In this document: positions 1,530 through 52,748 of the stretch, piece after piece
How positions within the stretch are numbered: the stretch's first letter is position 1
How the letters are laid out: each line of letters starts with the position of its first letter
Assembly (NCBI GenBank): GCA_949130485.1
Contig: OX422184.1
Coordinates: 15,164,405 to 15,228,404, forward strand
DNA length: 64,000 bases
Direction: 5' to 3'
DNA from: Agelas oroides
Lineage: Eukaryota > Porifera > Demospongiae > Agelasida > Agelasidae
Program-made: the position numbers and the translations under genes
Notes under the pieces: generated by a model
Told to the model about the DNA's origin: nothing
Databases searched by the model: none
The model's input: the letters and a program-made list of their open reading frames with translations, nothing else

Positions 1530-1647
1530 GTATGTATTGTATGTTTTGTTCCTTGTTATACAGTTGTCAAAATTATTTTATTTACGGGTGTAAGAGGGTA
1601 AGCAGAAATGTCCAAATGCTTCTATACTTTGTAACAACTTTACCGTA

Positions 1648-1853: not shown

Positions 1854-1907
1854 ATTTTTTCTTGAAAATGCGTATGCCCACCTCACACACAGGTAGTCTA
1901 GCTCTTT

Positions 1908-2505: not shown

Positions 2506-2539
2506 GTACTCATGCAAGATAATAAAGTTTTGTAGCTTA

Positions 2540-6714: not shown

Positions 6715-7600
6715 TGTCTGGTTCTGTTCATATTTCATCCTCTGTAGTTGCGCGGCATCACCCTAATCCATATCAATTGGCTGTTTTTCCTGTAAATCCT
6801 GAATTGGTATAACCCCTGTTTCTAGTAATAGTTGGTCATTTACATACTCTAATCAGTTTATAAAGAATTATTAGATATGGAAATTATATGGTATATTCAA
6901 CTTACTGTGTGAAAGAATTGTGTGGCGATCAGGGAGAGATATCTTTTCTGCTATTTCAATGTGGTGTAACATGGATATCCAAATACATAGGTATTTGGAT
7001 TTCCCTTGTACTGAGCATGTAGCAGACTTAAAATGGCATTACTAGAGGTGTAAACTTTCTTGGGTTGCTGTATAAACACATTTAGCTGTATGGCATGCAT
7101 CTTAGAGTGGTAAATGGTTCATGATATTCCTTTCTTCAATAGCTCTGATTCCTGGAAAAGTACAGAACCTGAGAGGATCTCAAAGTGCTGACAGATCTAC
7201 TGTGACCCTGCACTGGGAAAAGCCGAGTAATGCCAAACTTCCTGCAGAAGTGACAGCATATGAAGTTTCATATGGTTTACTTTCAAAAATGATTACTGTT
7301 AATGCTCCAACAACAAGTGTTGATCTTACTGGTTTACATTCAGTTGCAAGACATCATTTTGGAGTAAGAGCACGAAATGCTGACTATGCAGGAGAATGGA
7401 CCACACCATCAGAATGCATAGGTATGTGGTACACTTTTCATTCATAGCCATCAAAGTTATTGTCATTTAGGTAATGGATTATGTCAACTTGGTTCTGTAG
7501 AATACACCAAAAAAATACAATTTCAAGGTACTGTCCTGTGTAAGAAACATACCAGCTTTGCACAAGCGCCTGCACTAATAATGTAAATGATGTCAGTAAT
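6715..7600 (+). repeat. Duplicated segment around exon 3 (partner 25885-26728)
   Basis: Upstream intron (ggttctgttcatatttcatc onward), the FN3 exon and the downstream intron all align with 25885-26728. Similarity is clearly lower than for the exon 2/exon 5 pair. The partner copy is cut at about 26729 where the gypsy fossil begins. Confidence 0.75.
7143..7421 (+). CDS. FN3 domain exon 3 (type C)
   Basis: Exon of 279 bases (93 codons) between acceptor ttcttcaatag and donor gtatgt, phase 1 on both sides. It reads LIPGKVQNLRGS, VTLHWEKP (strand B), TAYEVSYG (strand C), NAPTTSVDLTGL, FGVRARNADYAGEW. The strand-F tyrosine found in sister exons is replaced here (HHFGVRA), so this copy is slightly degenerate though open throughout. 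Confidence 0.85.
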
Positions 7601-16601: not shown

Positions 16602-16692
16602 GGCTAATCAAGGGCACAGTCCAAAGAGCTAATCCTTGCCAATCACTTCGTAGTTTGTACTTCCAGCTAAGTCCCGTCGTCTCTGGGGTCTA

Positions 16693-17864: not shown

Positions 17865-18012
17865 ATGCATCTGCACTTAATTTTGTTGTAAAAAGAATTT
17901 TTGGGAATAAATGTCTTCAAAACTTTAGCTTAAGTAGTTTGAAGTCGCTATGTAGCATCTTCAATACAGCATACTAGTGGTCAGTGCAAATGGTTATTAT
18001 TTCTTTCTATAG

Positions 18013-18312
18013 CTCTTGCTATCCAGCCAGTGGAGAACCTGAGACTAGTTGTAGACAAACATAAACCTTCAATGATTCTGAAGTGGGACCGACCATCCTG
18101 TGGTGGAGATGTGACAGCATATGATGTTCGCTACCAGCCATCTAACAGTTGGTGGATAACACCATATCACAGGATGACTGTAAAGGCTCCAGCAACAAGT
18201 GTTCTCCTTGCAAGAAAGTCTGGCCTCCACTTACCAGCAATATATGTCTTTGAAGTCAGAGCACGAGATGCCAATTGTGAAGGGCAATGGAGCAAAGTTT
18301 CAGAGTATAATG
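18013..18312 (+). CDS. FN3 domain exon 4 (type B)
   Basis: Exon of 300 bases (100 codons) between acceptor ttctttctatag and donor gtacgt, phase 1 on both sides. Reads VENLRLVVD, ILKWDRPS (strand B), TAYDVRYQ (strand C), MTVKAPATSVLLARK, YVFEVRARDANCEGQWSK. Clearly homologous to exon 1 but about a third of residues differ, so this pair is much older than the exon 2/exon 5 pair or has escaped conversion. Confidence 0.87.
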
Positions 18313-18445
18313 GTACGTATCGTATGTTTGATTTAATTTACGGATGTTAGAGGATGACCAAAAATGCTTCTATGTTTCATAACAATTTTACTTTTCCTAC
18401 AAGCTTTGCACACACCTTGTAATGTCGGTGACCTGTATTGTGCTG

Positions 18446-18985
18446 TTAACTCTTTGCTGACCATTGGAATATTACATAAATGACCACACAGGAAGCAGCC
18501 TAGACGACGTGTTGTGTACTCTGTGTTATATCACCAGTTGCAAACCAGCTACAGACCTTTGGTAAAAAGAAGTGGAGAGCCTTAGGCTTTGCCTAGCTTT
18601 GCTGTAGTTTTAAAGAACACGCTTGGGGATAAACCCAAACTTTTTGTACCAGAAGTTGTCACCTTCAGTATGTTTTGGTGCCTGTAACTTGGCTGTTACA
18701 GTTCTGCTTTTGAAATCTGTCGCACACCCTGAATTCACCAACTGCAAGTTGATCGCTAGGCATTCTTTGTCAATTGTGGAGTATCATCGTTCCCAAGGTA
18801 GAAGTTTCCTACTGATCTGGATGTTCAAAGGGACCGAAACCCATGGTCATGCGAGGACCAGAAAGGGTACTCCCCTGAAGACCAGTATTTTTTGAGCAGT
18901 ACTAAAGATAGAGCTTTCATTTACCTATATCTTGCTTTTGATTGCATCTTCGTAGCTTGTATACTTCTTGAGATCGGTCAAAAGG
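18446..18985. mobile_element. TTAA family 3, second copy split by another insert
   Basis: Begins ttaactctttgctgacc and follows 17229-17520 to about 18720 (shared gccttaggctttgcctagct). It resumes near 18948 (agcttgtatacttcttgaga, compare 17586). The segment between includes a stretch (18815-18900) whose reverse complement is found at 62325-62405. The right end is not found. Confidence 0.5.
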
Positions 18986-19899
18986 GAAAGGAAAAAAAGG
19001 GAGCCACTGGGTGCAGGTTGTGTAAACAGTGGTTGTATAATGAATATCGGGTTTGTATTATTCAGGGTTTATACATAGTCAATGAAACTGACCTGCACTT
19101 GTCTTGCATTGTTAAATCCTTCATCCTGTCAAAACACATTCTCTTTCTTACCATCCCATTCTCTTTTGCAAAAATTTATAGATATTTTTGCTCTAGATTT
19201 TCTTCAAATTTGTTAAAATCTTTAACATGGTTGCCTAAACTTATATAGATATTTTTGTATGTTATGCCTGACTCTGGGCACCTGTTGTGTAATTTGTGTC
19301 TTGAATGTGCCTAAGCATATCTGTCAACTTTGAGCAAACGGGAGCAATTTACAGGCTTTTATTGATGAATGAAAAGTAAATGTGCTGCCATAATTTTAGG
19401 CAGTTCACTAAGTATTTATAGGATTTATTTGACATTCTGTACTGTGAAGATTTTGCACAAATTATTAAAAATCATGCAAAAGAGAATGGGACGGTACAAA
19501 AAAATGATGTGTTTTAGCTAGGATTTACTGTATTCAACACAAATATTTAGCACTTGAACTTGCCACAGATGTTTATATATAAATACGTATTGTGATGACT
19601 ATTTGAGTATGAGTATATATGTACACTCACTGTTGCTATTGTTCACATGCAAGTGGGACCGCTTGCGATACAGAATAGTGTCAGCATTTTGAAATAATTT
19701 ACACCCCAAGATGTGAAACAAAGGACCAATGCAATATTATAATATAATTCACAGGCCACAGGAAGCAATGGACATCCAGATAAACTCATGTGGCTCCACC
19801 CTTAAATGTAAAGTTTTGTTTTGAAGAAGCCTTGTGATAAGCCTTTTCATGCACTGCATGAACTTTGTTTTGATAAAGCTTTTTAATAAGTTTTGGCAC
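18986..19899. other. Intron sequence, nothing recognised
   Basis: AT-rich, no splice-flanked open segment and no repeat ends seen. Confidence 0.4.
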
Positions 19900-20570
19900 T
19901 GAACTTCTAGCTAAGGCAAATCTATACCACTAAACTCTAGGTTCTCTGAGCATCTTGGGGTGTGGTTTAGACTTGAAACTGTTACACATCATGGGGATTC
20001 AGTTGGGACCACATATTTGTCAGTTTGTAACAAGGTGTTCACTGTGAACAGTAGTTCCATAACTATTATTTAAGATATAATCTGTTCTGTAAATTTCATT
20101 CGTATTTATTCTTTCCATATATTAGCTCTTGCTCTTGAACCAGTTCAAAATCTGATGGTTGCTGTGGACACACACAACCTTTCTGTGACACTGAATTGGA
20201 ATCCACCAGTCAATGCTGGAGATGTTACAGCATATGACATTTCTTACAGAGCATCCAATGGTTGGTGGAATCACACAACTACTGTAAAGGCTCCCAACAC
20301 AAGTGTTGTTCTTACAAGGGAAGACTACATCTTTCCATTTTCAACATATGAGATTATGGTCAGAGCACGAGAGACTGATTTTGAAGGACAATGGAGCAAA
20401 ATATCCGTTTATACAGGTACGTACATGTAATTCATTAACTCATAACAAAAGTGTTGGTGTAGAGGTGCTGAGTGGGGTACTCACACCACACCATATGTGC
20501 AGTCTACATTATGTCATTCTTTTCACACTAACATGGTAAAGTCAAGTAGACCAGGATCAAAATTGAAGAC
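19900..20570 (+). repeat. Segmental duplicate, copy 2 (partner 2540-3215)
   Basis: Near-identical to 2540-3215 through intron, exon 5 and the following intron. The match ends soon after gtcaagtagaccaggatcaaa. Confidence 0.85.
20126..20416 (+). CDS. FN3 domain exon 5 (type A)
   Basis: Exon of 291 bases, same splice sites and phase as exon 2. Only two residues differ from exon 2, and both are the cysteines of that domain: RED-C becomes RED-Y and RETD-C becomes RETD-F. All FN3 landmarks (VTLNWNPP, AYDISYR, STYEIMVRARE, EGQWSK) are kept. Confidence 0.88.
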
Positions 20571-25884: not shown

Positions 25885-26306
25885 ATCTCTTTGGTTCTGT
25901 ACATACTTCATCCTTTGTAGTTGCACGGCAACACCTTAATCTGTATCAGTAGGCTGTTTTCCTGTGAATCCTCTATTGGTATACCCCTGTTTCTAGTAAC
26001 AGTTGGTCATTTACATACTCTAATCAGTTTATACAGCTAAAATGAAAATTAATTATTTGAAATTGAAATTATACAGTGTAACTTACTGTGTGAAAGGATT
26101 GTGCGGCGTGCAGGGGAGAGATGTTATTTCTGCCATTTCCAAATGGTGCAGCTCCCTTGTACTGTACATGTAGCAGATTTATTCTCTTAAAATGGCATTA
26201 CTAGAGGTTTAAACATCACTTGGGTTGTTGTATAAAAAATATTACAATGATGCTGTATGACATCTTAAGGTGGCAAATGGTTCATGATATTCATTTCTTT
26301 CCATAG

Positions 26307-26600
26307 CTCTGATTCCTGGAAAAGTACAAAACCTGAGAGGAACTCGAAGTGCTGACAAATGTACTGTGACCCTGAACTGGGACAAACCGGATAATGCGAA
26401 ACTTCCTGAAGAAGTGACAGCGTATGACATTTCTTGCAAATCATCAAGTCTTTTCCTGTTGCATAGCAATACAGTTGTTAATGCTCCGACAACAAGTGCT
26501 CGTCTTACTGACCTAAGTTCATATACAACATATGAGTTTTCAGTAAGAGCACGTAATGCTCACTTTGCAGGAGAATGGACCACACTGTCTGAATACATAG
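26307..26600 (+). CDS. FN3 domain exon 6 (type C)
   Basis: Exon of 294 bases (98 codons) between acceptor tttctttccatag and donor gtatgt, phase 1 on both sides. Reads LIPGKVQNLRGT, VTLNWDKPDNAKL (strand B), TAYDISCK (strand C), NAPTTSARLTDL, TTYEFSVRARNAHFAGEW. Partner of exon 3, with the tyrosine corner intact. The last + strand FN3 exon in the window; its downstream intron is interrupted about 130 bases later by the gypsy fossil. Confidence 0.87.
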
Positions 26601-26729
26601 GTATGTGCTACGTACACTTTTCATTCATAGCCATCTAAGTTGTTTTGTTGTCATTTAGGTATAAGGGGTTATGTCAACTTAGTTCTGTAGAGCACAACAA
26701 AAATATACAATTTCAAGCTACTGTAATGT

Positions 26730-37502: not shown

Positions 37503-38125
37503 TTATAATTGGCAAAATATGATATATTGTGGGCAGATGGCATGAGAATTGTAGACAACAATTTCATCATAGTTGAGGTCTTTTCCATGTTCTCCATGTA
37601 CTGAGTTGTAGCCTTTTGGTGGTCCAACTAGGTTTGGGCTGTTGAACTTAGTGGTATACTTTACACCAGGAGCAATATCACACAAAATGATTGCACTGCA
37701 TCTAGTGTTCCTGGTTGCGATTCTGTTGGCACCAAATCTATTTCCTACTGCATAGTCATAAGCCTTTGATGAGTTTGGAGCAAAGTAGAAGCCTTTGCCA
37801 AATCTTTGCCATGCGCTACTGCCAATCCTTAAGGGATCAAATCCTCTCCTGGTAATTCCACAAGCTCCACAGTTGGGATCATTGCAAAGATTGGCAGAAT
37901 TCACAAGGTCACAGCACAGAGTGGTACCATGGTAGTGCTGTTCAGTACCATAACGTTTGAAAGGATAGTCCTTAAACCTCAGGAATACAGTAGAGTTGAC
38001 AATCTTAACAATTGCAATGACAGAAGGACATCGACCCTTCTTCGTAGCCCAATCTTTTTGAAACTTATCATAAAGGTTCCTATACTCTTGGGATTGGTAA
38101 TGAAGCTTTACAACACCTGTACATC
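37503..38125 (-). CDS. PARP catalytic domain, terminal exon
   Basis: Exon of 623 bases after acceptor cttacttttcag, entering in phase 1 and running to a TAA at 37505-37503, giving about 206 residues. All PARP landmarks are visible in order: EQHYHGTT supplies the NAD-binding histidine-glycine; FGKGFYFAPNSSKAYDY matches the GKGIYFAD..SKSANY segment with its tyrosine; LCDIAPGVKY is the central strand; YNSVHG and YDEIVVYN supply the glutamate of an H-Y-E triad, which predicts transferase or polymer-forming activity. A cysteine cluster CNDPNCGACGITRRGF precedes the tyrosine segment, as in a PARP subfamily found in plants, fungi and invertebrates. The first ATG in the frame is internal (37904); the true reading starts at the splice site. 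No PARP regulatory, WWE or macro domain is seen. Confidence 0.85.
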
Positions 38126-38215
38126 CTGAAAAGTAAGAGAAAATAGTTTCTCAATATTTATGATTCCTCAAGAATACACTTGATTAGTTTGCCAACTACC
38201 ATTTATGCGACTCAC

Positions 38216-38530
38216 CAATGAACGCTGAGACTACTTTCCACACTCCAAAGTCATCACCACTCTGTGCTCTCACTTCAAAAGTGACAGTGGTATGTAGCGA
38301 AAGCCCAGAATCCTCACTGAGGACTATGCTAGTTGTAGAGCCATTCACATAAACCTCACTGTAGTGCTGTCTTTCTTGTGGCTTGAAGCGAATGTGGTAG
38401 CGGCTAACATCTGAGCAGGTGTGTTGAGTTCCATCAACAACATTGCGTGGAGGGTCCCAAGTTAGGGTTGCAGATGGGATATTTGAATCTACCTGAACTT
38501 TTAAGTTCTCAACTGAGTCTGGAACTATTG
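38216..38530 (-). CDS. FN3 domain exon X4, last before PARP
   Basis: Exon of 315 bases (105 codons) between acceptor ccttccctgcag and donor gtgagt, phase 1 on both sides, separated from the PARP exon by an intron of only 90 bases. It has no in-frame ATG and is recognised by splice sites and similarity to the X exons at 41446, 45312 and 52434. Reads VENLKVQVD, ATLTWDPP (strand B), RYHIRFKPQE (strand C), NGSTTSIVLSED, FEVRAQSGDDFGVWK. Confidence 0.85.
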
Positions 38531-39019
38531 CTGCAGGGAAGGTGAATCACAGTGAAACTCTTAATACAGACATTCACTATAGTGGACACTTTGGTAAAAT
38601 GAATTCCAATCCAGATTGCATCCTCATTGAGTGTAATACTGTACAGCTCTCCAAAATGTGGACTTTCATATTCCCCGTGGTACTGAAAGCTGTCCTATAA
38701 TTCTTTGCAAGCCATACTTAAACAATCTCCATGGGGTAGATGCTTCTCAGCAACTGCTGCAAGATATAATGACTGGACCGTATAAAAAGAGCCTCTCTTT
38801 TAGTGTTTCTCACACATGTACACGCCATAAAGCAAGAGAGAGCTTTGATAATGTAGCCTTGTAGCCTAAGTACACAAAGGCACACCTACTGGATATATAC
38901 CGGAACTCCTGGAAATACGAACTCCTTCTAACAAGTGGCGTGGTTCCTTAGAGAGGTTTACCACTCAACCCCAGTGATGCTACCTTGTTTAAAGATACAC
39001 TACAATGTTTAAAACCTAC
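38531..39019. other. Intron, nothing recognised
   Basis: About 490 bases without repeat ends; the 68-codon frame on the other strand has no motif. Confidence 0.4.
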
Positions 39020-39322
39020 CAACAAATGTTGACACAGTCCTCCATTCTTGGCTTTCATCAATACCACTGCAGGCCCTCACTTCAAATGTGGTCTCAGTCA
39101 GTGGTCTGAGTCCTGTCTCTCTTGTGATGACAGTGGTAGTGGTGGAACCATTCACAAACTTCCCTTTGTAGCAACCTTCCTGCTTGTCCCAGAAACGAAC
39201 CTGATAGTCAGTGACATCTCCTGTGCGTTCAGCATTAGCTGGTGGATCCCATTTCAGTGTCACAGTGGGCTTGCACGAGTCTACGGCTGCTTTCAGGTTT
39301 TGAACTAGGTCAGGTGTGAGAG
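39020..39322 (-). CDS. FN3 domain exon Z5
   Basis: Exon of 303 bases (101 codons) between acceptor ttgctacag and donor gtaggt, phase 1 on both sides. Reads LVQNLKAAVD, VTLKWDPPANAE (strand B), YQVRFWDKQEGC (strand C), GSTTTTVITRE, FEVRACSG. Two cysteines (EGC, RAC) recur in all Z exons. Lies next to another Z exon, so one Z was duplicated alone. Confidence 0.86.
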
Positions 39323-40314
39323 CTGTAGCAATTAAGTAAATATCAGTGTGATTGATTGTAATACATGAAGGGATAAAGAAGACTCCTATTTTGCACTGCC
39401 CACCAATTTGCCAATTGTCTCAGGCTTATTCAATTATCTTTACTACTTCCAGTACCACTGGTGTTTCTATACATACATGTATTTGATAAATCATGAAATC
39501 AATTACTTGTAGCAACAGTTTCGAGGATAGCTGCATGAACAGGTGCTACCTTGAAGCCATTGCTACTTCACTTTGTGGTTAAAGCCATCCACATTCTGTA
39601 TTTCTTCCATTAGGTAACATTTCCAGCTAGGTCACTCTAGCAGAGCCAATGAGGCTGACATAGTTGTTCCGCCAGTGAAACGGAAAGTGTATACGTACAA
39701 AAATTCCACTGTTTAAAAAAAAAATTAACGGCACCTTGTCTTCCGGTAAGTTTCCAAAGTCTCTTGACAACAAACGAGAAGCTGCATGTACCTACCTTGC
39801 CAGCGGTTTTTTAGACCAGTCAGTCTACTATCGAAATCCAATGTTTCAAGCTTCAGACTCTTACCGCTTTGTGTAGGGAACCTGTTCTTTATGGACAGTT
39901 CGATCGTACCTCGTGAGAGCGGGGTGTGATTTAGCTTGGCACATTTCCTTTCACCCCCCCTGAGCTACATGAAACAGGTACCATTCGAAAGCACTGGAAT
40001 CAGGCTACAAAATATGCATGCATCTACATTCTTTTCCAAGGGGTGCAATGTAGTACCCCATTTTATTAGAGCAGACAGGGAATAAGGGTAGGCAAAGCGT
40101 ACATCTGATTTAAACTACTCAGTGTATATATACTACTAGAGTATCACACACATTGGTAATGCAGGTGTATGCTACAGTACAAAATTTCTCCCCTTTTTAA
40201 CTTGTGCTCTAAAGACAAAAATACTAACAATGCTATATGGGCTGTCTGTGGTGGAGCTGTGCAACCTGCATCAAAAATCCTTCAATCACAATCAACTAAA
40301 TGTCTTTAACCTAC
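39323..40314. other. Intron, nothing recognised
   Basis: About 990 bases. A somewhat GC-richer stretch near 39640-39960 may be an inserted element, but no terminal repeats were found. Confidence 0.4.
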
Positions 40315-40608
40315 CAACAAATGTTGACACAGTCTTCCTCTCTTGGCTAACATCATCACCACTGCAGGCTCTGACTTCAAAAGTGGACATAGTCAGTGGT
40401 CTAAGCCCCAAATCTCTTGTGATGATGGTGGTAGTGGTAGACCCATCCACAAACACCTCATTGTAGCAACTCTTCTCCTTGTCCCAGAAACGAACCTGAT
40501 ATTTAGTGATATCTCCTGCATTTTCAGCATTAGCTGGTGGGGCCCAGTTCAGTGTCACAGAAGGTTTGTGTGTGTCTGCAGCAGCTGTCAGGTTTTGAAC
40601 AGTTAGAG
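40315..40608 (-). CDS. FN3 domain exon Z4
   Basis: Exon of 294 bases (98 codons) between acceptor ctttttctatag and donor gtaggt, phase 1. Reads VQNLTAAADTHKP, VTLNWAPPANAE, YQVRFWDKEKSC, STTTTIITRDLG, FEVRACSGDDVS. A three-residue shorter start than the other Z exons. Confidence 0.86.
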
Positions 40609-40918
40609 CTATAGAAAAAGATTACATCATTTTTTATTTTTTATTTTTTTGAGGCTAACCGCACCCCAAGTGGAAAAAAATTTCACATATGTAATTGCTC
40701 ATCCAAGCATGTACAGAAGCCAGAGTATGGTGAAGCCACTCAGTGCAGTGGGCAAACACTGTCGTTACATGCTGAATACAGAGTTTACACAAGTCATGCC
40801 ACTGTGTACACTGAACTTGTATGGCCTTTTCTTTCTTCCCTTGGCTTTTTTTCCCCACTTGGGGCGTAATACATGCATACAGGCCTAAACATACTCAAAA
40901 ATACACATATAGACATAC

Positions 40919-41227
40919 CGATGTGTTCTAATATTCCACTCCAATTTCCTTCATACCCAGTGTTTCGTGCCCTAACTTCAAACTCATAATTCTTTAGTGG
41001 TTTAAGACCGGATTCCCTTGTCAGAAGAATGTTCCTTGCTGGTGCTTTCACTGTCATCATACAATAGCCTTTTTTCTCCAAACATGTGCATGGCTTAAAC
41101 CGAATGTCATATGCTGTCACATCTTGACCAGTTTCACAATTCATTGGCCTGTCCCACTCCAAGATCAGAGAACCTGTGCTCGGGTCCATGGTTGATCTCA
41201 GGTTCTGAACCTCTCCAGGAAACAGAT
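40919..41227 (-). CDS. FN3 domain exon Y3
   Basis: Exon of 309 bases (103 codons) between acceptor catttcctag and donor gtatgt, phase 1. Reads LFPGEVQNLRSTMDP, LILEWDRPMNCE (strand B), AYDIRFKPCTC (strand C), VKAPARNILLTRE, YEFEVRARNTGYEGNW. Four cysteines lie around strands B-C (NCE, PCTC, GYC). The Y type is the one most like + strand type B (DRP, TAYD, VKAPA). Confidence 0.86.
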
Positions 41228-41445
41228 CTAGGAAATGATGCAAGGGTGATATTGTGAAATGTAACTTCCTGATATTAACAAGTACAGAACGGCTTTCTTC
41301 AAATTTTTCTCACAGATGTACTTACCATTTACGAAAAAATTAACATGATGCTAGTGAATCAAGCAGCTTTCTCTACCAAATTATACAGTCACAAAACATT
41401 CAAGTCCACTTTATTGCTTGGCCAAGAAACTCTTGTCCAACTCAC

Positions 41446-41760
41446 CAACAAAAGCAGAGACTGTTTTCCATTGTCCTACGTTGTCACCACTCTCTGCTCT
41501 AACTTCAAAGATGGAGGTAGTATGTGGTGTCAGCCCAGAATCCCTTTTGAGAACTAGGCTGGTTGTAGATCCATCCACAGTGTTGTCTTTGTAATGCCGT
41601 GTTCCTCTTGGTTTGAAGCGAATGTGGTACCTGCTGACATCCAAGCAGGATTCTGGTGATCCAACCCCAGAATTTTGTGGAGGAGCCCAAGTCAGGGTGA
41701 CGGATGGCATACATGGGTCCACGTGAATTTTCAAGTTCTCAACCGGATTTGGATTCAGTG
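41446..41760 (-). CDS. FN3 domain exon X3
   Basis: Exon of 315 bases (105 codons) between acceptor ttgccattcag and donor gtgagt, phase 1. Reads VENLKIHVDPC, VTLTWAPPQNSG, DVSRYHIRFKPRG, GSTTSLVLKRDSG, FEVRAESGDNVGQWK. Differs at only about four residues from the X exon at 45312, while neighbouring Y and Z exons of the same triplets are much less alike. Confidence 0.87.
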
Positions 41761-42620
41761 CTGAATGGCAAAATATGTACATTAAAGGAGGGTCTATACA
41801 GCACAATTCATAGATCGTGGGAGTAAGCCCAAGCAAGTAGTGTTTGCAGAGCTGCTTTTCTGCAGGCTGATCATAAAACAGCATCTAGCTAGCAACAGAG
41901 TTTGTCATTTCCTACTGTCTGTGAGCACCGACTTGCCTAATGCAACTTGTATACAAGTCCTTACATTTGTGAAAAATGTATTGCATTTGGAGTGATGGCT
42001 GTAAATGGAAGGCAGTTCTTGACAGAGGCACACAATGCAGCTACCACAATGCAGATGAAGACCAGCATTTTTGAGCATTTCAAAATATCCTGATAACTCA
42101 TAATTGTAGCTGTATAATCACAACACCTGTTTAGATACAATTGTCCCACCCAATTTATTCGTACCCAACCCACCCATTTAGCTACAATGCCACCAATTTA
42201 GCCGTAACTATCCCGCTCTTTTAGCTGCAAATGCCACACCCGATTACCTGTAACTTCCCCAGCATTGTCTGGCACATTCGTACACTTGTATGTATACTGT
42301 AGTATGACTGTAGACCTTTTGTTCGTATCACCACATGGTGGTACCAATACTTGTTTGTACTTAAGGTGGCACGGTACCCTGTATTTTCAAGGTCAACAAA
42401 CCTGGAATCCAAGTTGATAGTCTTCTTTGTCTTGTTAAAATTTTAGCGCACAGTCCGTTTTGGGAGTCTCAAACCGTTCACGGTCCGTAAAATTGGGGAT
42501 TTTCCCCATTTCCTGTCGGCATTGCCATCCAATAATCAGTTTATAATTAAGTTAGTTAAGATGTGGCCTGGCGGCACCCTTCATGTGGTGCTCGGAACTT
42601 TGAAGATAAGCTTAGATCGA

Positions 42621-42655
<35 letters not shown>

Positions 42656-43935
42656 AGGAGTTTAGTAGAGTGCTGTAGTGTCAGTAGCTGTGAGTAGTGC
42701 GTGATGCCTGCTTGTGAAAGCAAGCTTGTGTCTAGAAGCAGCAGAAAGGCCACAGTGGCCAAGACTGTATTTGTTGAGTAGGCCCAGGTCTCGCGGCCGT
42801 ATGCCTAGTCTAGTTGGTGACCGTGGCCAGGTGCTTCGAGTGCTGGGCTGGGCTTTAACTAGAATACGCAATTTATCGTTTGTGCTACAGTCTGACAGAC
42901 AAGGGAGCTGAACGGTGGCTGTGTGTGGAACAGAGCCGTGAGTTGTTTAGCGACATAAGGGGGAGAGGTGGGGCTAGTAATGCTTGCTTCCACTCGTGAA
43001 TGAGCCCCTCCCGTAGACAAGCTGTGAATTTTTCGAAATGTGCATTCATTTTGGTGCAGTCAAAGTTGTCCATTCCAAGAGTAGTGACAAACATGAGTCT
43101 AGCCTGACTTTGAGAGTAGCTTTGAACAAAAGCTGGCATAGATTGATTTGAGATACATTGGTGGTTGGGACGCTACCTACAGTGAGCGTGTAGATGCGTC
43201 CATCGAGTGGCAATTTTGGGTTCATGAATATATTAATGAGCTACTAAAACCCTTTTTAAAATTAGGCAAAGCAAGATTGCCCTAAACCAAACCCTAACCC
43301 TGAAACTAGGAGTAACCCTGGTCCTGACTGTAACCCAAGTTTATGTTTTCGTTAACCTCCGCCGAGGGACGACCGTGCCACCTTAAGTTAATTGTCATGT
43401 GTAAGATGTCTCACTTATCTGAACATATTGACAAATGTCTGTTACCTACCGACAAATGTCTATTAGTGTATTTTTTCAAATAAAACGCATGATCCAATCT
43501 AGTGCAAGATATTCAATTCTGGGAATTTATAGGTGGATCCAACTTAGAGCAAGCTGCCGCTAATTAATTTTGGGTTGATCCAATTTAGCGCAATACCAGG
43601 AATGAAGCCTCTCAGTTGTCCCAGTCAGTTTATTTTGTGGCAACAAAGGGCGGTCAAGAACAAAAAGAGCTATCCTATAAATTTTCTACTTCGGCGCTTG
43701 TAAGACGTTTCGTTGCTGCAGCTGCTACTGTCTACCAAGAACCTCATTTCTGGAGAACCGAAGGCCAGGAACTCTTGCATCTCTGTGTGACCAAAAATTT
43801 TCCACGTTTTAATCCATTGCAACGCATGATCTAATCTAATGCAAGAAATTAAATTCTTGGAATTTATGGGTGGATCTAACTTAACGCATGCCCACTCAAA
43901 TTATTTAATTTGCATGCGTTTTATTCAGTACCTAC
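41761..43935. other. Intron with a TTAA-type repeat insertion
   Basis: Holds the repeat element 42361-43386 and, after it, direct repeats of about 60 bases (43484-43545 and 43822-43880, cgcatgat-c-aatctagtgc-like). Near 43442 the text ttacctaccgacaaatgtct resembles a Z-exon end with its donor, possibly a vanished exon. Confidence 0.5.
42361..43386 (-). mobile_element. TTAA-flanked GGTGGCACGGT family, full copy
   Basis: TTAA on both sides, left end GGTGGCACGGT and right end its inverse ACCGTGCCACC. An A-run of about 30 bases lies at 42626-42655. Two partial copies occur at 48737-49568 and 60592-61204. Peptides are shared between copies (SQARLMFVTTLGMDNFDC here and at 60784; RHLGL/RDLGL..KYSL..CGLSAASRHKLAF here and at 49216), but the frames are short and no transposase was recognised. 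Confidence 0.7.
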
Positions 43936-44238
43936 CAACAAATGTTGACGCAGTCCTCCACACTGGGCTTACATCATCACCACTGCAGGCTCTCACTTCA
44001 AAAGTGGTCTCAGTCAGTGGTCTAAGTCCTGACTCTCTTATGATGACAGTGGTAGTAGTAGAGGCATTCACAGTCTTCTCATTGTAGCAACAGTTCTTCT
44101 TATCCCAGAAACGAATCTGATATGTGGTGACATCTCCTGCACATCCAGCATTGGCTGGTGGGTCCCATTTCAGTGTCACGGAAGGCTTGTGTGAGTCTAC
44201 AGCTGCTGTCAAGTTTTGAACTGGTTCAGGTGTGAGAG
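43936..44238 (-). CDS. FN3 domain exon Z3
   Basis: Exon of 303 bases (101 codons) between acceptor gatgtttacag and donor gtaggt, phase 1. Reads VQNLTAAVDSHKP, VTLKWDPPANAG, YQIRFWDKKNCC, ASTTTTVIIRESG, FEVRACSGDDVSPVW. Confidence 0.87.
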
Positions 44239-44319
44239 CTGTAAACATCAAATAGATTTTTTTTACTGGTAACTGATCACAGAAGCAGTATCCCAAATAC
44301 TTATATGATGTGTAGCTAT

Positions 44320-44463
44320 ACATCCAACCATCAAAACAAATCTGATATGTCGTGATATATTGTGCATATATACAATTGGCTGGTGGGTCCCATTTCAGTG
44401 TCACAGAAGGGTTATGTGTGTCTACAGCTGCTTTCTGGTTTTGAACTGGGTCAAGTGTAAGAG
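44320..44463 (-). pseudogene. Half FN3 exon (Z type, N-terminal half)
   Basis: After acceptor gcattatatag the frame reads LTLDPVQNQKAAVDTHNP, VTLKWDPPANC and TYQICF, then leaves the family with no strands D-G and no matching donor. It is the remnant of a Z exon beside the intact Z at 43936, 80 bases away. It stays open into the intron toward the next exon but is unlikely to fold as FN3. Confidence 0.7.
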
Positions 44464-44568
44464 CTATATAATGCACCACAAGGCAGGTTCTGCTTAAATT
44501 GTTACACTATGTTAGTAGCTTGAAGCTTACCTTCCTTAGCAAACATGCATGACATTGTGTATACTTAC

Positions 44569-44877
44569 CAACATATTTTACTATTCTGCTCCAATTTCCA
44601 TCATGGCCAGCATTTCGTGCCCTGATTTTAAATTCATACTTCATCAATGGTTTAAGGCCAGATTCTCTAGTTAGTTGAATACTGGTTGCTGAGGCTTTCA
44701 CCGTTATCTTACAATAGCCTTCTCCTTCCAAACTTGCACATGGCTTAAACCAAACGTCGTATACAGTCACATCTTTGGCAGTTTCACAATTCAATGGTCT
44801 GTCCCAATCCAGGGTCAGAGAAACAGTGCTGGGGTCCATGGTTGATCTCAGGTTCTGAACCTCTCCGGGAAACAGAT
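44569..44877 (-). CDS. FN3 domain exon Y2
   Basis: Exon of 309 bases (103 codons) between acceptor tgtaatttttcag and donor gtaagt, phase 1. Reads LFPGEVQNLRSTMDP, LTLDWDRPLNCE, VYDVWFKPCAS, GYCKITVKASATS, YEFKIRARNAGHDGNW. Keeps the Y-type cysteines. Confidence 0.87.
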
Positions 44878-45311
44878 CTGAAAAATTACACAAGAACTGT
44901 TGCTAATGCTGGAGATATGCATGTCCTGAGTGCAATGACAAAATATGAAACCAGAAATATGCTGCTTGTTCAGGCTCATCCCATGATGATCAAGCACTAG
45001 CACTACAATAGTACAGAAGAGTTTGTAAATTACTGATTTCTGTCTTAAAACGTATCACAACAAGGGCATGGCAAAAGGGAGTACTACTAGGCCTACGGTT
45101 AGGCACAGTGGGCATGAGAAAAATCAGTCTCATTACACATTGGACTCCAGAGTTGCTTTGTACAAATACCATTGTTCGGTCTCAACATTGGTGCTATCTT
45201 GCTCACACTGCCTGAGTGACCATAGGGAGTGTCGATGGCTGACAATATTTGTACAGCACACTCATGCAAGTCAACTTTATTGCTTGGCCAAGAAACTCTT
45301 GTCCAACTCAC

Positions 45312-45626
45312 CAACAAAAGCAGAGACTGTTTTCCATTGTCCTATGTTGTCACCACTCTCTGCTCTAACTTCAAAGATGGAGGTAGTATGTGGTGTCAGC
45401 CCAGAATCCCTTTTGAGAACTAGGCTGGTTGTAGATCCATCCACAGTGTTGTCTTTGTAATGCCGTGTTCCTCTTGGTTTGAAGCGAATGTGGTACCTGC
45501 TGACATCCAAGCAGGATTCTGGTGATCCAACACCAGAATTTTGTGGAGGAGCCCAAGTCAGGGTGATGGATGGGATACATGGGTCCACATGAATTTTCAA
45601 GTTCTCAACCGGATCTGGATTCAGTG
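45312..45626 (-). CDS. FN3 domain exon X2
   Basis: Exon of 315 bases (105 codons) between acceptor tttggcctttcag and donor gtgagt, phase 1. Nearly identical to exon X3 at 41446 (IPSI for MPSV and few other changes), including about 45 bases of the following intron (gagtttcttggccaagcaat). Confidence 0.88.
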
Positions 45627-45781
45627 CTGAAAGGCCAAACATTTATATATATAGCTTCCATTTGCTGTGTTTACAGTACTGTTTGTGAACTTTGCAGCAT
45701 TACCAAATGTGCAAAAAGATTAGTAGGAATGCATGAAAATAAATTAAATGCAAAAAAAATACACAATAAAGTTCTACATAC

Positions 45782-46084
45782 CAACAAATGCTGACACAGT
45801 CCTCCACTTCTGGCTTACATCATCACCACTGCAGGCTCTCACTTCAAAAGTGGTCTCAGTCAGTGGTCTGAGCCCTGACTCTCTTGTGATGACAGTGGTA
45901 GTGGTAGACCCATTTACAGTGCTCTCATTGTAGCAACATTTTTCCTTGTCCCAGAAACGAACCTGATACTTAGTGATATCTCCTGGGTATCCAGCATTGG
46001 CTGGTGGGTCCCAGTTCAGTGTCACTGCAGGCTTGTGTGTGTCTACAGATGCTGTCAGGTTTTGAACTGAGTCAGGGGTAAGTG
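45782..46084 (-). CDS. FN3 domain exon Z1
   Basis: Exon of 303 bases (101 codons) between acceptor cttttgctacag and donor gtatgt, phase 1. Reads SVQNLTASVDTHKP, VTLNWDPPANAG, YQVRFWDKEKCC, GSTTTTVITRESG, FEVRACSGDDVSQKW. Followed upstream (higher coordinates) by a 4.2-kb intron full of insertions. Confidence 0.87.
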
Positions 46085-46845
46085 CTGTAGCAAAAGATAA
46101 CATAAACATAAAAACGCTTTTAACCATACAGTAGATGTTGCAATTTTGAAGTTGCAGCAATTTCAAATGTGTTTTGCTAGAATTAAAATTAAATAATTGC
46201 ACATTCATGTTCAGGGCGTAGATACACTGTGTCTTCAGGAATACCAGTTGGTTGGCTTCCAAGCATGGCGTAATATAAGTGCTGTTGTACTACGAAGACT
46301 TACCTCCCTTGGAAATAGCAGAAAGTGTAAGTGTTCTGAAATACCCCTTGTTCCAAAGTAACCACAATTTCTTACTTTGATTAGAAAATTGATAACAGGA
46401 CTGTCTGAAACCAATGATACTGTTAAAATGTATTATTAGGTAGTGGCTAGAAAGCCGCTAGTGGAAATTAAATTGTAGGGTCGATAACTTCTGATAGCAA
46501 ACTCCAATTTTAATGAAACTAGTATCAGTAGATTGAGCTTTAAAAGAGCTACAAAATGGTACCCATTTTGTCGGCAAGCTGTTTAGTACAGGTGGCGTAC
46601 CTAGTAAAATTCACTTCGCATAATCTTAAAGTACCAGTACCGGTACTTTAAGCTTTTGTATTTGTATTTACAACAATACAAGGCACAGCCTAACGAAATG
46701 GGTACCATTTTGTAGCTCTTTTAAAGCTTTATCTACTGATACTAGTTTCATTAAAATTGGAGTTTGCTATCAGAAGTTATCGACCCTAGAATTTAATGTC
46801 CACTACCGGCTCTAGCCACTACCTAATTATAAATTTTAACAGTAT

Positions 46846-47110
46846 TGTAATGTTCGGCGCGGCTGCGGCGTGAGTCAGCGGCTTCAACCAGAAGAATGGC
46901 AAAAATGACAGTATTTGCCAGGACAACTTGTGCATACAGACTCACTTCTTTATAGCCAGGTACAAAATCAGGGCCAATATCAAATCAGGGCTAGACTCAT
47001 AAAATCAGGTGACTAACCATGTACAGATATGACAGATAAGACAATACATCATTGTCCAGTTCGTTGCATTTCAAGACAATACATCAGGTTTCATTGTCCA
47101 GTTCGTTACA
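46846..47110 (-). repeat. Gypsy fossil LTR (left)
   Basis: 265 bases beginning tgtaatgttcgg and ending gttcgttaca. Shares gtcagcggcttcaaccagaa and gtgactaaccatgtacagat with the right LTR. Confidence 0.8.
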
Positions 47111-48365
47111 TTATTCCCCTCTGAAAAGAAGTGTGTCCTCACACTTAGTTCTCCAACTCGGAGTCAGAATCTCTGAAGCTGACAACTGTTCCGTACCTTT
47201 CTGGAGGCCTCCTTAATCTCGTGGACCGTCTCAAAGCCGGTGGACTAGGGCTCTGTGTCTCTTCCGATTCACCCATTGCCTGCTCGGTTGGTATGTCCTC
47301 CTGGGCAGTTTGTAATGGAGAAACAGTTTCATCGACTTGCACCCAGTCCTCTTGAGAGTGTTCATCCTCTCTCTGACAGTGGTATCTCTTGAGTCTGTTG
47401 GCATGTACAACAACTCGTTTCCTCGGGTTTTGCACATGTTGGATGCGGTATACCACACTCCCAATTTTCTTGACAACTTTGAATGGGCCTTGCCAAGGGC
47501 GATAAAACTTTCGACTTTTTCCTCGGGGAACAGCTGGACAGTGTAGCCAGACCAGGCTACCATTCTGAAATGTATTCTCCTGGGTGAATCAGTCATAGTT
47601 TGCTTTCTGTTTCTTTTGTTCAACCGCCGAGTGGTCTCTTACTCTTTGATAGACATCATCATCTTCAGTCAGATCATTTCAGACCACCTACAGAAGCTAC
47701 GAGAAGTATTGGCTAGACTTCAGAAAGCAGGCCTAAAAATCAAACCAAACAAGTGCTTTCTGATGCAACAAAGTGTTCACTACCTTGGCCATGTGGTGTC
47801 AGCAAAAGGAGTGGAAACAGATCCAAAGAAAGTAAGCTGTGTCCGGGAATGGCCAATTCCTACAGATGTCAAGGAGCTCCAGCAATTTCTAGGATTAGCC
47901 TCCTACTATAAGCGGTTTGTCAAGAATTTTGCTCACAAGGCCAGGCCACTATACCGGCTCACAGATAAGGGAAGAAGATGGAACTGGACCCATGAATGTG
48001 GTGAGGCTTTTGTCACACTGAAACATGCCCTAATCTCTGCCCCTATACTGACTTTCCCCGATTTTAACCATGATTTCATCTTGGATACAGATGCCAGCAC
48101 AGATGGTCTGGGGGCTGTTCTCTCTCAGCAGTCTGCGGAGGGGGAGAAGGTGATCGCTTATGCCAGCTGAACCCTCACTAAAGCGGAACGTCAGTACTGC
48201 ACTACCAGGAAAGAGATGTTGGCTCTGGTCTGGGGTATACGTCAATTTCGCCCCTACCTCTATGGACAAGCATTCCAGGCCACAACCAACATCTCTTTCC
48301 TGGTAGTGCAGTACTGACGTTCCGCTTTAGTGAGGGTTCGGCTGGCATAAGCGAGCACCTGCGAC

Positions 48366-48572
48366 ACAAGTCAGCGGCTTCAACCAGAAGAATGGCAAAA
48401 ATGACAGGACAACTTGTGCATACAGACTCACTACTTTATAGCCAGGTACAAAATCAGGGCCAATATCACTCATAAAATCAGGTGACTAACCATGTACAGA
48501 TATTACAAGACAGATAATACAAGACAGATATTACAAGACAATACATCAGCTTTCATTGTCCAGTTCGTTACA
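48366..48572 (-). repeat. Gypsy fossil LTR (right, partial)
   Basis: About 207 bases matching the left LTR from gtcagcggcttcaaccagaa to gttcgttaca. Internal short duplications (acaagacagata) distinguish it. Confidence 0.8.
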
Positions 48573-48736
48573 GTATCGTTGGTTTCAGACAGTCATGTTA
48601 TCAATTTTCTTTTTACATTACAGTTGCAAACTAATGTGAAAATGATGCAGGGATGAGGGTTTGTAAATTTACCTTCACTATTATATCATCCCTACCTTGT
48701 TTGCATACTTTTTGGCATGCCATCCCTACATCTTTT

Positions 48737-49568
48737 TTAAGGTGGCACGCCTGTCACTCAGCGGAGGTTAACGAAAACATAAACCTGGGTTATAGTCAGG
48801 ACCAGGGTTACTCCTAGTTTCAGGGTTAGGGTTTGCTTTAGGGCAATCTTGCTTTGCCAAATTTTTAATTAGTAGCTCATTAATATATTCATGAACCCAA
48901 AATTGGCACTGATGGATGCATCTACATGCTCACTGTAGGTAGCGTCCTAACCACCAACTTGTCTCAGATCAATCTATGCCAGCTTTTGTTCAAAGCTACT
49001 CTCAAAGTCAGGCTAGACTCATGTTTGTCACTACTCTTGGAATGGACATTTTTAAAAATTCACAGCTTGTCTACGGGAGGGGCTCATTCACGAGTGGAAG
49101 CAAGCATTACTAGCCCCACCTCTCCCCCTTATGTTGCTAAACAACTCACGGCTCTGTTCCACACACAACCACTCTTCAGCTCCTTTGGATACTGGAGCGT
49201 AGGACCAACGATATATTGCGTACTGTAGTTAAAGCCCAGCCCAGCACTCGAAGCACCTGGCGACGGTCACCAACTAGGCTAGGCATACGGCCACGACACC
49301 TGGGCCTATTCAACAAATACAGTCTTTGCCACTGTGGCCTTTCTGCTGCTTCTAGACACAAGCTTGCTTTCACAAGGAGGCATTATGCATTACTCACAGC
49401 AACTGACACTACAGCACTCTACTAAACACCTTTTTTTCTTTCTTTTTTTTTTCTTTTTTTCTTTTTTTTTTTAAAGTCGATCTAAGCTTATCTTCAAAGT
49501 TCCGACCACCACATGAGGTGTTCTGCCAGGCCACATCTTAACTAACTTAATTATAAACACATTATTGG
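48737..49568 (+). mobile_element. TTAA/GGTGGCACG family, copy 2 (one end)
   Basis: Starts TTAA-GGTGGCACG and follows the inverse of 43386-42530, with a T-rich run at 49431-49472 in place of the A-run. Ends inside the family near ccacatcttaactaactt/attattgga, so the far end is missing. Confidence 0.65.
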
Positions 49569-49829
49569 ATGGGGGTGGGCGCTTTTTCAAGGGTGGGCAC
49601 TCTATTTGCGAGACTATGGTATTAGCCATCTGACACGAACGATGGAATGTTGGAAATCATGAAAATTGGTAATAATATTCTGACTGGTGGGTCACAAAAT
49701 AACAGGGCAAGTTAGAAGTTAGAGTTATGTATCACTTTATAGTATAAGTAGTGTACAGATACAAATCGTAAGCCAAATGCCATTTCTCAAATCTGCTTAC
49801 CAATGGTCTTGCCATGCACCATTTCATAC

Positions 49830-50280
49830 TTGTGAGTTGCTAGCTGCAGAAGTTCTTACAAGTAGAGTAATCATCATTTATTCTTATATCTACCTGTATA
49901 TAATATCAGTGTTGATTTAGTAAAGGCTTACACTTTTTGTTTAGTTGTATTAAGCTTTTAGTTATCAAAAGCATAGTTTTAGTTTTCTGCTATTACTATG
50001 GAGGAGGGTGGAGGGAGTCCTACAACGTCTGGCTTGCTGGGTTCTGGACTACTGTTATTTCAGCTGAACATAGTATTTAGTAGTTGTAGTCCGAACTTCG
50101 CTGCAGATGTCTTCGGGGCAACAAATTTTTTTAATACACAACGTTTCGACCAAGGCGGTCTTCTTCAGGTGTACCTGAAGAAGACCGCTAGATAGGTAGA
50201 TATAAGAATAAACAGAGAGATGACAATTACTGTACTTGTAAGAACTTCTGCAGCTAGCAACTCACAAGTATGAAGTGAGT
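49830..50280. mobile_element. Penelope-like or foldback remnant with palindrome
   Basis: Outer inverse repeats: gagttgctagctgcagaagt near 49836 and acttctgcagctagcaactc near 50250. Inside is an exact palindrome gcggtcttcttcaggt-gt-acctgaagaagaccgc (about 50154-50187) preceded by aacgtttcgacc. On the - strand this gives ctgaaga...ggtcgaaacgtt, a combination typical of Penelope-like element ends and resembling half a hammerhead core. Confidence 0.4.
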
Positions 50281-50314
50281 TTGCTATAGTATCAAATAGT
50301 ACTGATACACATAC

Positions 50315-50623
50315 CGACATATTTCGACTCTCTGCTCCAATTTCCATCATAGCTGGCATTTCGTGCCCTGATTTCAAAGTCATACTTCATCAGTGGTCTA
50401 AGACCAGATTCTCTCGTTAGAAGAATGCTCCTTGTTGGTGCTTTCAACATCACCTTACAATAGCCTTCTTCAACTGAACTTTCAGATGGTCTAAACCGAA
50501 TGTCGTATGCTGTCACATCTTGATCAGTTTCACAGTTCGTTGGTCTGTCCCACTCCAAGAACATAGAACCTGTGCTGGTGTCCAAGGTTGATTTCAAGTT
50601 CTGAACCTCTCCTGGAAATAGAT
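50315..50623 (-). CDS. FN3 domain exon Y1
   Basis: Exon of 309 bases (103 codons) between acceptor catttcttag and donor gtatgt, phase 1. Reads PGEVQNLKSTLDT, MFLEWDRPTNCE, AYDIRFRPSES, GYCKVMLKAPTRS, YDFEIRARNASYDGNW. Only two of the Y-type cysteines remain. Confidence 0.87.
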
Positions 50624-50763
50624 CTAAGAAATGAGATGAAATTCGTGTACCTCAACATTCTTGAACTGGAGTCTACCGACAGTTGCAAGTAGGTTGTCCA
50701 GTCCAGTTAAATGTTCAAACCTCCATAGGACTGCCCATAAATGAGCTAAACTAATTTAGCTAA

Positions 50764-51560
50764 GTGCATGCAGCTGTGGAATTGTCAATGCAGCAAATAA
50801 TATTTCAAGCGATTACACGCTACCGTTCAGCAGCCAGGATGCCTAAAGCACTTTTTGAAGATTTGAGGTGGAGGATCGTATGGCAAATGTTATTAGGGAG
50901 AACAAGCACAACAGGTAGCAAGAAACTTGTATGTGAGTGTGAAAACAGTTCAGCGGATTACCAACTTGTTTAACAGAACGGGAAGTGTTTCCCCAGCCGT
51001 TCAAAGTCATGGTCCAGCCAGGAAACTTAGTGAGTTTGAGGAACTAACAGTTCTGGATTGTTTTTAACTAACCCTGGCATATATATGGATGAAATTCAAC
51101 AAGAACTATGTGATCAAACAGGCACATGGGTGAGCAAATCTTCAATTTGTCGTGAAGCCAAAAAGATGGGACTTACCAGAAAAAAGGTGAGGAGAATAGC
51201 CACTCAGAGGAGTGACATTGCTCGAGCTTACTTTATGGTTCAAGTGGAAAGTATGAGTGCTAATACCTTTATATGGGTTGATGAAACTGGTTCAGACAAG
51301 CAGAATGCTCTTAGAAAGTATGCTTACAGCCTGCAAGGTGTTACACCCATCAACTACTGCCTCTACACTTCAGGTAGGCAAATATCTGCAATTTCTGCTA
51401 TTTCAACCAGAGGGGTTGAAGATGTTTATCTTCCAGAAGGAGGTGTCAGTAATGATACGTTCTGCGATTTCATCGAGAAATGCTTGCTACCTGTTCTAAT
51501 GCCCTTCAATGGGTCTAACCCCCGTTCCATTGTTGTCATTGACACCAGAGCAGTATGAAG
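50764..51560 (+). pseudogene. Tc1/mariner-IS630-type transposase, broken
   Basis: The frame at 50764-50973 carries an N-terminal helix-turn-helix start (PKALFEDLRWRIVWQMLLG). Similarity continues in another frame (VSVKTVQRITNLFNRTGSV) and returns at 51058-51558 with GIYMDEIQQELCDQTG, TRKKVRRIATQRS and the first catalytic motif FIWVDETGSD. The stretch IVVID near 51530 holds the second acid; the sequence then departs from the family and the last part of the DDE triad is missing. At least two frameshifts and a 3' truncation. Lies antisense in the intron between FN3 exons Y1 and X1. Confidence 0.7.
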
Positions 51561-51739
51561 AGCAACGGGATTCTATCCTCCAACAGATGGACAAACTTAA
51601 CCCCCAGAAGTAGATTGTGACACACAACCATTGTATCACTTCCTCTAAGTGTTTAGCAACTTCATCTCTCTGCATACAAATCTGATTCAATGCGTTACAT
51701 GTAACCTCATTGTCCAAATACCATGCACACTACCTAATA

Positions 51740-52100
51740 CAAGGGTGTAGCTAGGATTTATTGAGTGAGGAGGCATTACCTTGCCGCGCGGCGAAAATGT
51801 AGCTAATTAATTATTCATAACTTAACTAATTACTAAGTTTCTAATTAAACAACATTAAAAGTACGTAAATGTACAAAAATATCTAAGTTACCTTTCCTTC
51901 CACGCTTTGTAAAGAAAGTTGTCAACGCTGCTGGTCTTTTCCCAGCCAGGAGGTCTTTATTTATAGTGCGGGTGAGTTCTGTCATAGTGATGTAACGTGC
52001 ACTAGATATCCATAGGACATCACCAATGCGTGCGTGCGTCCTTACACAGAAAAGTGAGGAGGCAACTGCCTCCTCTGCCTGATTGCTAGCTACGCCCCTG
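51740..52100. mobile_element. hAT-like MITE (GGGGCGTAGC ends)
   Basis: Left end caagggtgtagctagga and right end, in inverse, caggggcgtagctagcaa, each followed by a gcctcctc/gaggaggc block. The CAGGG(G)CGTAGC terminus is shared by many hAT MITEs. A clean 8-bp target duplication is not evident. Confidence 0.5.
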
Positions 52101-52433
52101 TAATATGGGTAGGCTCAATTACTGAACCCTCCTGTAGAGGAGGAGAATGTGTTTTCCCAGGCTCCCTCCCATCCTACAAAATGTAATAAGGACCTAGAAG
52201 CTGCAAAATTAGTTTAGCTCTAAGTATGCCTTGGACAACCGGTCACCCACTTACTAATTAAATTATGGGCAGCCTTAGAGGCTTCAACATTCAACTTGAA
52301 CTAGACAAGCTACTTGCAACTGTCTGTATGTATAAGAAATTATGGTTGTCATCCTCGAAAGCTGGCGTAAAATTAAAGGAAAGTGATCAGGACTGTTCTC
52401 AATACTTTGGCTATAAAATATTCTTCAACTCAC

Positions 52434-52748
52434 CAACAAAAGCTGAGATGGCTTTCCATTGTCCTATGTCATCTCCACTCTGTGCTCGTACTTCAAAAGT
52501 GAAAGTGGTGTGTGTAGTAAGACCTAATTCTCTGTTGAGGACTATGCTGGTTGTGGACCCATCCACAAAGGCTTCTTCATAGTGTCGTCCTCTATTTTTC
52601 TTGAAGCGTATGTGGTAACTGCTGACATCTGAAATTGTAGTTGCAATCTCCAGAATCAGGGGAGGAGCCCATGTCAGGGTTACAGATGGAATTTTTGGAT
52701 TTACAATAGTTTTCAAGTTCTCAACTGTGTCAGGAACCAGTCTGAAAG
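52434..52748 (-). CDS. FN3 domain exon X1 (most upstream seen)
   Basis: Exon of 315 bases (105 codons) between acceptor tcttacctccag and donor gtgagt, phase 1. Reads VENLKTIVNPKIP, VTLTWAPPLI, DVSSYHIRFKKNRG, GSTTSIVLNRELG, FEVRAQSGDDIGQWK. Nothing FN3-like was found upstream to the window end. Confidence 0.86.

Follow-up and report, generated by a model that had tools for sequence, protein, structure and literature searches.

A stretch of 64,000 nucleotides from the sponge Agelas oroides (contig OX422184.1, here C2, positions 15164405-15228404; hereafter the window) very probably carries, on its minus strand, the 3' part of a single gene in which at least 11 fibronectin type III (FN3) domains are fused to a C-terminal PARP catalytic domain. 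The combination recurs elsewhere in the genome, and recurrent FN3-PARP is, as judged from exons and domain matches, a new architecture inside the known PARP superfamily. On balance, we favor a reading in which the product is an intracellular ADP-ribosyltransferase aimed by its FN3 domains, with an expandable array and possibly a part in defense. The case rests on sequence, the genome searched comprised 259 Mb in 141 contigs, and the exon joins are predicted splicing, for which the candidate site nearest to the domain edge was chosen when several fitted.

Read 5' to 3' on the minus strand, 11 FN3 exons (38216-52748) are followed by a terminal PARP exon (37503-38125). The 12 joined exons encode 1,336 amino acids, and the sole stop is the terminal one. 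The elements are listed below in that order, with window positions and Pfam bit scores.

52434-52748 (-): FN3 exon of type A, the most 5' FN3 found; 30.2 bits, predicted splice sites
50315-50623 (-): FN3 exon of type C; 43.7 bits, predicted splice sites
45782-46084 (-): FN3 exon of type B; 41.9 bits, predicted splice sites; modeled, with a mean predicted local distance difference test (pLDDT) score of 92.5
45312-45626 (-): FN3 exon of type A; 31.8 bits, predicted splice sites
44569-44877 (-): FN3 exon of type C; 41.9 bits, predicted splice sites
44330-44464 (-): relic of the first half of a type-B FN3, probably unused; matches a local FN3 profile at positions 2-46 only, E 9.3e-14
43936-44238 (-): FN3 exon of type B; 48.0 bits, predicted splice sites
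41446-41760 (-): FN3 exon of type A; 30.4 bits, predicted splice sites; DNA 96% like 45312-45626
40919-41227 (-): FN3 exon of type C; 43.4 bits, predicted splice sites
40315-40608 (-): FN3 exon of type B; 39.6 bits, predicted splice sites
39020-39322 (-): FN3 exon of type B; 41.2 bits, predicted splice sites
38216-38530 (-): FN3 exon of type A; PF00041, 26.1 bits, predicted splice sites
38126-38215 (-): predicted 90-base phase-1 intron between the last FN3 exon and PARP; GTGAGT donor, pyrimidine-rich CAG acceptor
37503-38125 (-): terminal exon with PARP catalytic domain, H-Y-E triad and stop codon (37503-37505); PF00644, 41.9 bits, phase-1 acceptor

Every FN3 open reading frame (ORF) exceeds the Pfam cut-off of 25 bits (11/11; lowest 26.1), and the PF00644 match of the PARP ORF at 37503-38150 (cut-off 26.7) spans residues 20-208. 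Each of the 11 FN3 exons lies between an AG acceptor, with pyrimidines at 9-12 of 14 positions, and a GT donor, both in phase 1, and the exon lengths (294-315 bases) are multiples of three. An earlier note on this DNA had described 11 FN3 exons and a complete-looking H-Y-E PARP exon between 37503 and 52748, on one strand and in a common intron phase, with only 90 bases between the last FN3 exon and the PARP exon. This description stands: all 11 exons pass the cut-off, the PARP match and its triad are present, every exon is in phase 1 in an open joined frame, the gap corresponds to the intron at 38126-38215, and both ends agree with the gene model. The fusion that the note proposed is likewise supported by a PARP frame without methionine, the short intron, the matched phases and five more loci.

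Neither the 215-codon PARP frame nor either of the two nearest FN3 frames contains a methionine; translation of PARP from an ATG in its own frame thus needs an upstream exon, and the 90-base intron offers no space for a first exon or a membrane exon between FN3 and PARP. An arrangement of two genes, in which the FN3 gene would end near 38196 and PARP would form a gene of its own, would be compatible with the stop that the FN3 frame at 38216 meets at 38196 when the intron is retained, and a distant first exon that skips every FN3 exon would also fit the sequence. However, the methionine-free PARP frame of 215 amino acids, its phase-1 acceptor, the 90-base gap and the recurrence at five loci all argue against two genes; this arrangement was dropped because the PARP frame has no methionine, and we regard it as highly improbable.

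The association of the two domain types exceeds a chance neighborhood and extends well beyond the window. A type-B FN3 query against the whole genome returned at least 62 matches at E <= 1e-6, and all 62 fall into three clusters (35 in C2:15.117-15.217 Mb, 25 in C10:7.887-7.935 Mb and 2 on C21), while a type-C query returned at least 54, every one of them in the C2 and C10 clusters; these match counts are lower bounds. Each of the three clusters contains PARP exons of the subfamily found in the window. The FN3 subfamily of the window also lies upstream of PARP at five other loci, namely C10:7884, 7910 and 7935 kb and C21:928 and 945 kb. In the stretches examined, 22 FN3-bearing frames precede PARP at C10:7910 kb (in two of them the match is split into two pieces), two at C10:7884 kb, and one at each of the remaining three. 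The PARP search of the genome gave 17 matches, from which 12 near-full-length sequences were aligned and 5 fragments were excluded. In this genome, the PARP subfamily numbers at least 12 PARP exons of near-full length and, as read from the exon boundaries, is built from exchangeable phase-1 exons.

The PARP domain is probably an active enzyme, because its triad is invariant, its profile and fold are tankyrase-like, and its ratio of nonsynonymous to synonymous substitution rates (dN/dS) is low. Residues H66, Y114 and E188, which we take to be the H-Y-E motif, are conserved in 12/12 aligned PARPs, and Y and E also align with tankyrase-2. Between the catalytic His and Tyr, the cysteines C72, C86 and C89 occur in all 12 sequences and C81 in at least 90% of the rows; basidiomycete PARPs have a similar cysteine pattern after the catalytic His. 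Tankyrases are the best Protein Data Bank (PDB) matches of the PARP profile (E 5.6e-17), and a Foldseek search with the PARP model ranked tankyrase 1 first (E 1.9e-8, template modeling score 0.54). Between the window copy and three C10 copies, dN/dS is 0.17-0.27, a rough range since dS is 0.9-1.4; five other paralog pairs, with lower dS, give 0.18-0.30. These ratios place the PARP domain under purifying selection. When viral and prokaryotic relatives were sought by scanning with the PARP alignment, tblastn revealed none, either among 49 pattern stretches from viral_contigs or among 88 from genome_contigs.

At the other five FN3-PARP loci, two small Cys/His exons with the pattern C-x(3-6)-C ... 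F-C ... H stand between the last FN3 exon and PARP (5/5). The earlier note was blind to these exons, and the window gene is the exception among the six loci. A pattern expression caught 9 of the 10 Cys/His exons of the five loci, and the tenth was found separately. All 12 examples chosen for alignment share the residues C, C, F, C and H, whereas in further copies, at loci lacking FN3, Y can replace F, or C can replace H; at C10:7910 and C21:945 kb, the exons are, by eye, in phase 1 on both sides. In the frames tested, Pfam gave no match over its cut-off in the Cys/His part, and a PDB search with it returned nothing convincing (best E 0.037, HIV-1 protease constructs). These exons encode putative zinc fingers. 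No Cys/His or Cys-rich-module exon was found in the window, so the window gene has probably lost its two Cys/His exons.

Two relatives, at C21:954-957 kb and C2:25.47 Mb, carry no FN3 that we could find there, and their PARPs are 47% and 40% identical to that of the window, respectively. The first combines a Cys-rich module, Cys/His exons and PARP. At the second, several modules lie upstream of PARP: a WW domain (45.5 bits), another WW below threshold (22.6 bits; cut-off 26.9), a single weak PDZ match of 14.3 bits (cut-off 27), a Cys/His exon and two Cys-rich modules. One of these Cys-rich modules is near a methionine, in a frame that by eye lacks a hydrophobic leader; the other matches FAM221 below threshold, with 22.7 bits against a cut-off of 25. 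The Cys-rich module, RGxC..C.C..Y...C..C.H.P..H, is found near a methionine at C2:25475802-25477197 and C21:953734-953853. From their order and strand, we infer that the exons at each of these loci form a single gene. A scripted WW expression had missed the WW domain that Pfam detected.

The FN3 exons are of three sequence types, named A, B and C here, and run 5' to 3' as A C B / A C B / A C B / B / A, with the relic adjoining the second B. This order, together with DNA self-matches such as that between the type-A exons at 41446-41760 and 45312-45626, is consistent with tandem growth, and the array appears to have grown through duplication of a three-exon unit. The modeled type-B domain has seven strands, and its nearest PDB folds are FN3 domains. 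Among 15 same-type FN3 pairs, dN/dS ranges from 0.25 to 0.63. Since every FN3 exon is phase 1-1, exon duplication or skipping could yield many in-frame arrays ahead of one C-terminal ADP-ribosyltransferase. A separate observation concerns C10:7897480-7905587, where about 4.05 kb of FN3 array is tandemly repeated at 100% identity, either because the duplication happened very recently or because the assembly is faulty.

Most FN3 arrays are extracellular, whereas PARP-type enzymes are intracellular and need nicotinamide adenine dinucleotide (NAD+). Proteins with WW and PDZ domains are typically intracellular, and it is mainly because of these domains in the FN3-free relatives that we place the family inside the cell; an intracellular product is, in our estimation, quite likely. 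The earlier note had left a choice between an unusual intracellular repeat protein and a receptor or secreted protein with an ADP-ribosyltransferase; the relatives lean to the intracellular side, while the receptor or secreted side stands as a rival. In that rival, the same fusion would be secreted or N-terminally membrane-anchored, with FN3 and PARP both outside the cell as an extracellular ADP-ribosyltransferase. Such a protein would suit the usual setting of FN3 arrays, and Perina et al. 2014 (PMC4245714) describe one PARP of the sponge Amphimedon that has a transmembrane segment at its N-terminus.

A number of observations weigh against an intracellular, FN3-aimed enzyme, and several of them would fit the secreted form. 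Among the best 50 PDB neighbors listed for the FN3 model, most are extracellular receptor domains. Cysteine pairs are kept in FN3 types B and C and could be disulfides. About 300 bases ahead of FN3, both C21 copies have a short, hydrophobic ORF, with a phase-1 donor, that could be a first exon encoding a signal peptide; because this ORF belongs to a duplicate of 95% identity, its conservation carries little weight. The WW and PDZ-like modules occur only in FN3-free or possibly separate genes. The 31 kb upstream of the FN3 array contain no further minus-strand FN3 exon and no Cys/His or Cys-rich-module exon, and, of the 16 minus-strand ORFs of at least 60 amino acids between 52.8 and 64 kb, 10 were compared with Pfam, none of which exceeded a cut-off. 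The PARP model is of modest confidence (mean pLDDT 67). In the tree of 12 PARPs, the FN3 carriers lie near one another with 2 changes, and one origin is seen in 14% of 200 bootstrap trees, a pattern compatible with either a single gain or several gains of FN3.

Nevertheless, the secreted form is opposed by the intracellular, NAD+-dependent nature of PARP-type enzymes, by the zinc-finger-like Cys/His exons of the paralogs, and by the FN3-free relative whose Cys-rich module lies near a methionine in a frame that, by eye, has no leader. Sequons in the FN3 part show no clear enrichment (12 vs 8.8 +/- 2.6 in shuffles). A scan for signal-peptide first exons, which used a home-made, simple and uncalibrated score, gave one weak candidate in the 11 kb upstream of the window gene and none in the next 20 kb; across nine stretches it gave 0, 1, 1, 0, 0, 7, 1, 3 and 1 candidates, of which the fourth and sixth (0 and 7) are controls, so hydrophobic ORFs also turn up in control stretches. 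A comparison of upstream ORFs among the paralogs was uninformative. Taken together, we consider the secreted or anchored form rather unlikely.

The window copy might also be a decaying copy or pseudogene, in which loss of the Cys/His exons and uptake of transposons left a non-functional remnant. The absence of Cys/His exons from the window search, the half FN3 relic, the retroelement and transposase pieces in introns, and two sister copies whose FN3 exons contain stops are all in keeping with decay. These two copies, C10:7935 and C21:928 kb among the five other loci, have one stop each in the FN3 exon adjoining PARP; part of the family is thus decaying, a further point against the favored reading. 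However, all 12 exons of the window copy are open, its splice sites and triad are kept, and its PARP dN/dS is 0.17-0.27, although a pairwise ratio averages over the whole history and a recent loss of constraint would escape it. A pseudogene was rejected as the principal explanation because of the open exons and low dN/dS, and is kept as a minor and improbable rival.

Returning to an intracellular fusion enzyme, we propose that FN3 exons came to sit upstream of a unit of Cys/His exons and PARP, that these FN3 exons then multiplied in tandem, and that the window copy afterwards probably dropped its two Cys/His exons. The FN3 array would act as an intracellular binding rod recognizing a partner, and the C-terminal PARP would use NAD+ to attach ADP-ribose either to this partner or to its own polypeptide. 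From the tandem growth and the wide differences in copy number, we conjecture a role in defense or self/non-self recognition, which we hold tentatively, as something short of an even chance. More specifically, a variable array could aim an NAD+-using effector at changing targets, as a diversifying recognition system in defense or self/non-self discrimination; we give this version low credence. The family would extend the known partners of PARP enzymes by FN3 arrays and by a Cys/His module without a Pfam match in the frames tested, and its pattern is that of a targeting part rebuilt by exon duplication beside a conserved enzyme. If cytosolic, the protein would be an intracellular FN3 enzyme; if outside the cell, an extracellular PARP.

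Among known systems, the closest in catalytic domain are the tankyrases (PARP5a/b), the best PDB match by both profile and fold, which likewise place a repeat-rich scaffold before a C-terminal PARP. Unlike the window gene with its FN3 domains, tankyrases have ankyrin repeats and a SAM domain, for which no match was found in the 11 upstream FN3 frames, and the four cysteines between the catalytic His and Tyr further set the window subfamily apart. FN3-array receptors and matrix proteins share the FN3 fold, the tandem arrays and the phase-1 exons; the window gene differs in ending in PARP, and its 90-base intron is too small for a membrane exon. Ecto-ADP-ribosyltransferases (ARTC) have a catalytic motif of the R-S-E type, in contrast to H-Y-E here. 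The multi-domain layout and lineage duplications recall the CCCH zinc-finger PARPs (PARP7/12/13) and the PARP14-like macro-PARPs, and antiviral activity of PARP13 is reported (PMC4245714, PMC2964712). No Macro, WWE or CCCH (C3H1) match was found in the FN3 and PARP frames or in 10 of the 16 upstream ORFs. PARP14-like types exist separately on C19, distinct from the window gene: two frames tested there are RRM-like/WWE/PARP (RRM below the cut-off) and macro/WWE/PARP. The FN3 type is thus an addition rather than a renaming. The two frames aside, C19:6.05-6.22 Mb holds a cluster of PARP frames, several of them above 1,000 amino acids.

Sponge PARPs have been surveyed before. Perina et al. 2014 (PMC4245714) distinguish nine PARP types in sponges and describe six PARP14-like proteins in Amphimedon, with macro domains and in some cases WWE or RRM; the words "fibronectin" and "FN3" do not occur in that text, nor does "fibronectin" in Citarelli et al. 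2010 (PMC2964712). According to Kaur et al. 2021 (PMC8195603), TRADD-N proteins of Amphimedon combine domains in many unique ways, and PARP occurs in fusions in other marine animals; "FN3" is absent from the text of that paper. In the open literature (mostly without subscription papers, and without bioRxiv), no paper was found that joins "PARP catalytic domain" with "fibronectin type III". PARP, FN3 and sponge co-occur there, as far as the available text goes, only in a clinical titin study, and the accessible part of a tankyrase-1 muscle paper names "fibronectin type III domain" once. The earlier note's statement that no named family is known to have this layout agrees with this search, in which no describing paper came to light.

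Several features lie near FN3-PARP genes. On C21, the segments 923208-924333 and 934680-935820 are duplicates upstream of the FN3-PARP copies; the first contains a protein-kinase frame (PF00069, 137 bits) followed by PDZ-like frames. These kinase and PDZ-like exons were considered as part of the FN3-PARP gene and dropped, because the PDZ-like frame stops before FN3. The window itself carries six further FN3 exons on the plus strand (1238-3077, 7142-7432, 18012-20424 and 26306-26611), for which no PARP exon was found within the window; they resemble two tandem copies of an FN3 gene and belong to an FN3 field that extends back to C2:15.117 Mb. Introns of the FN3-PARP gene hold a reverse transcriptase/RNase H fragment (47547-48170, +) and a fragment whose match to the DDE_3 transposase falls just below threshold (51040-51558, +). 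Elsewhere in the window, a Pao-type retroelement (10308-16607, -) has a single open frame of 2,099 amino acids with Peptidase_A17, DUF1759 and DUF5641.

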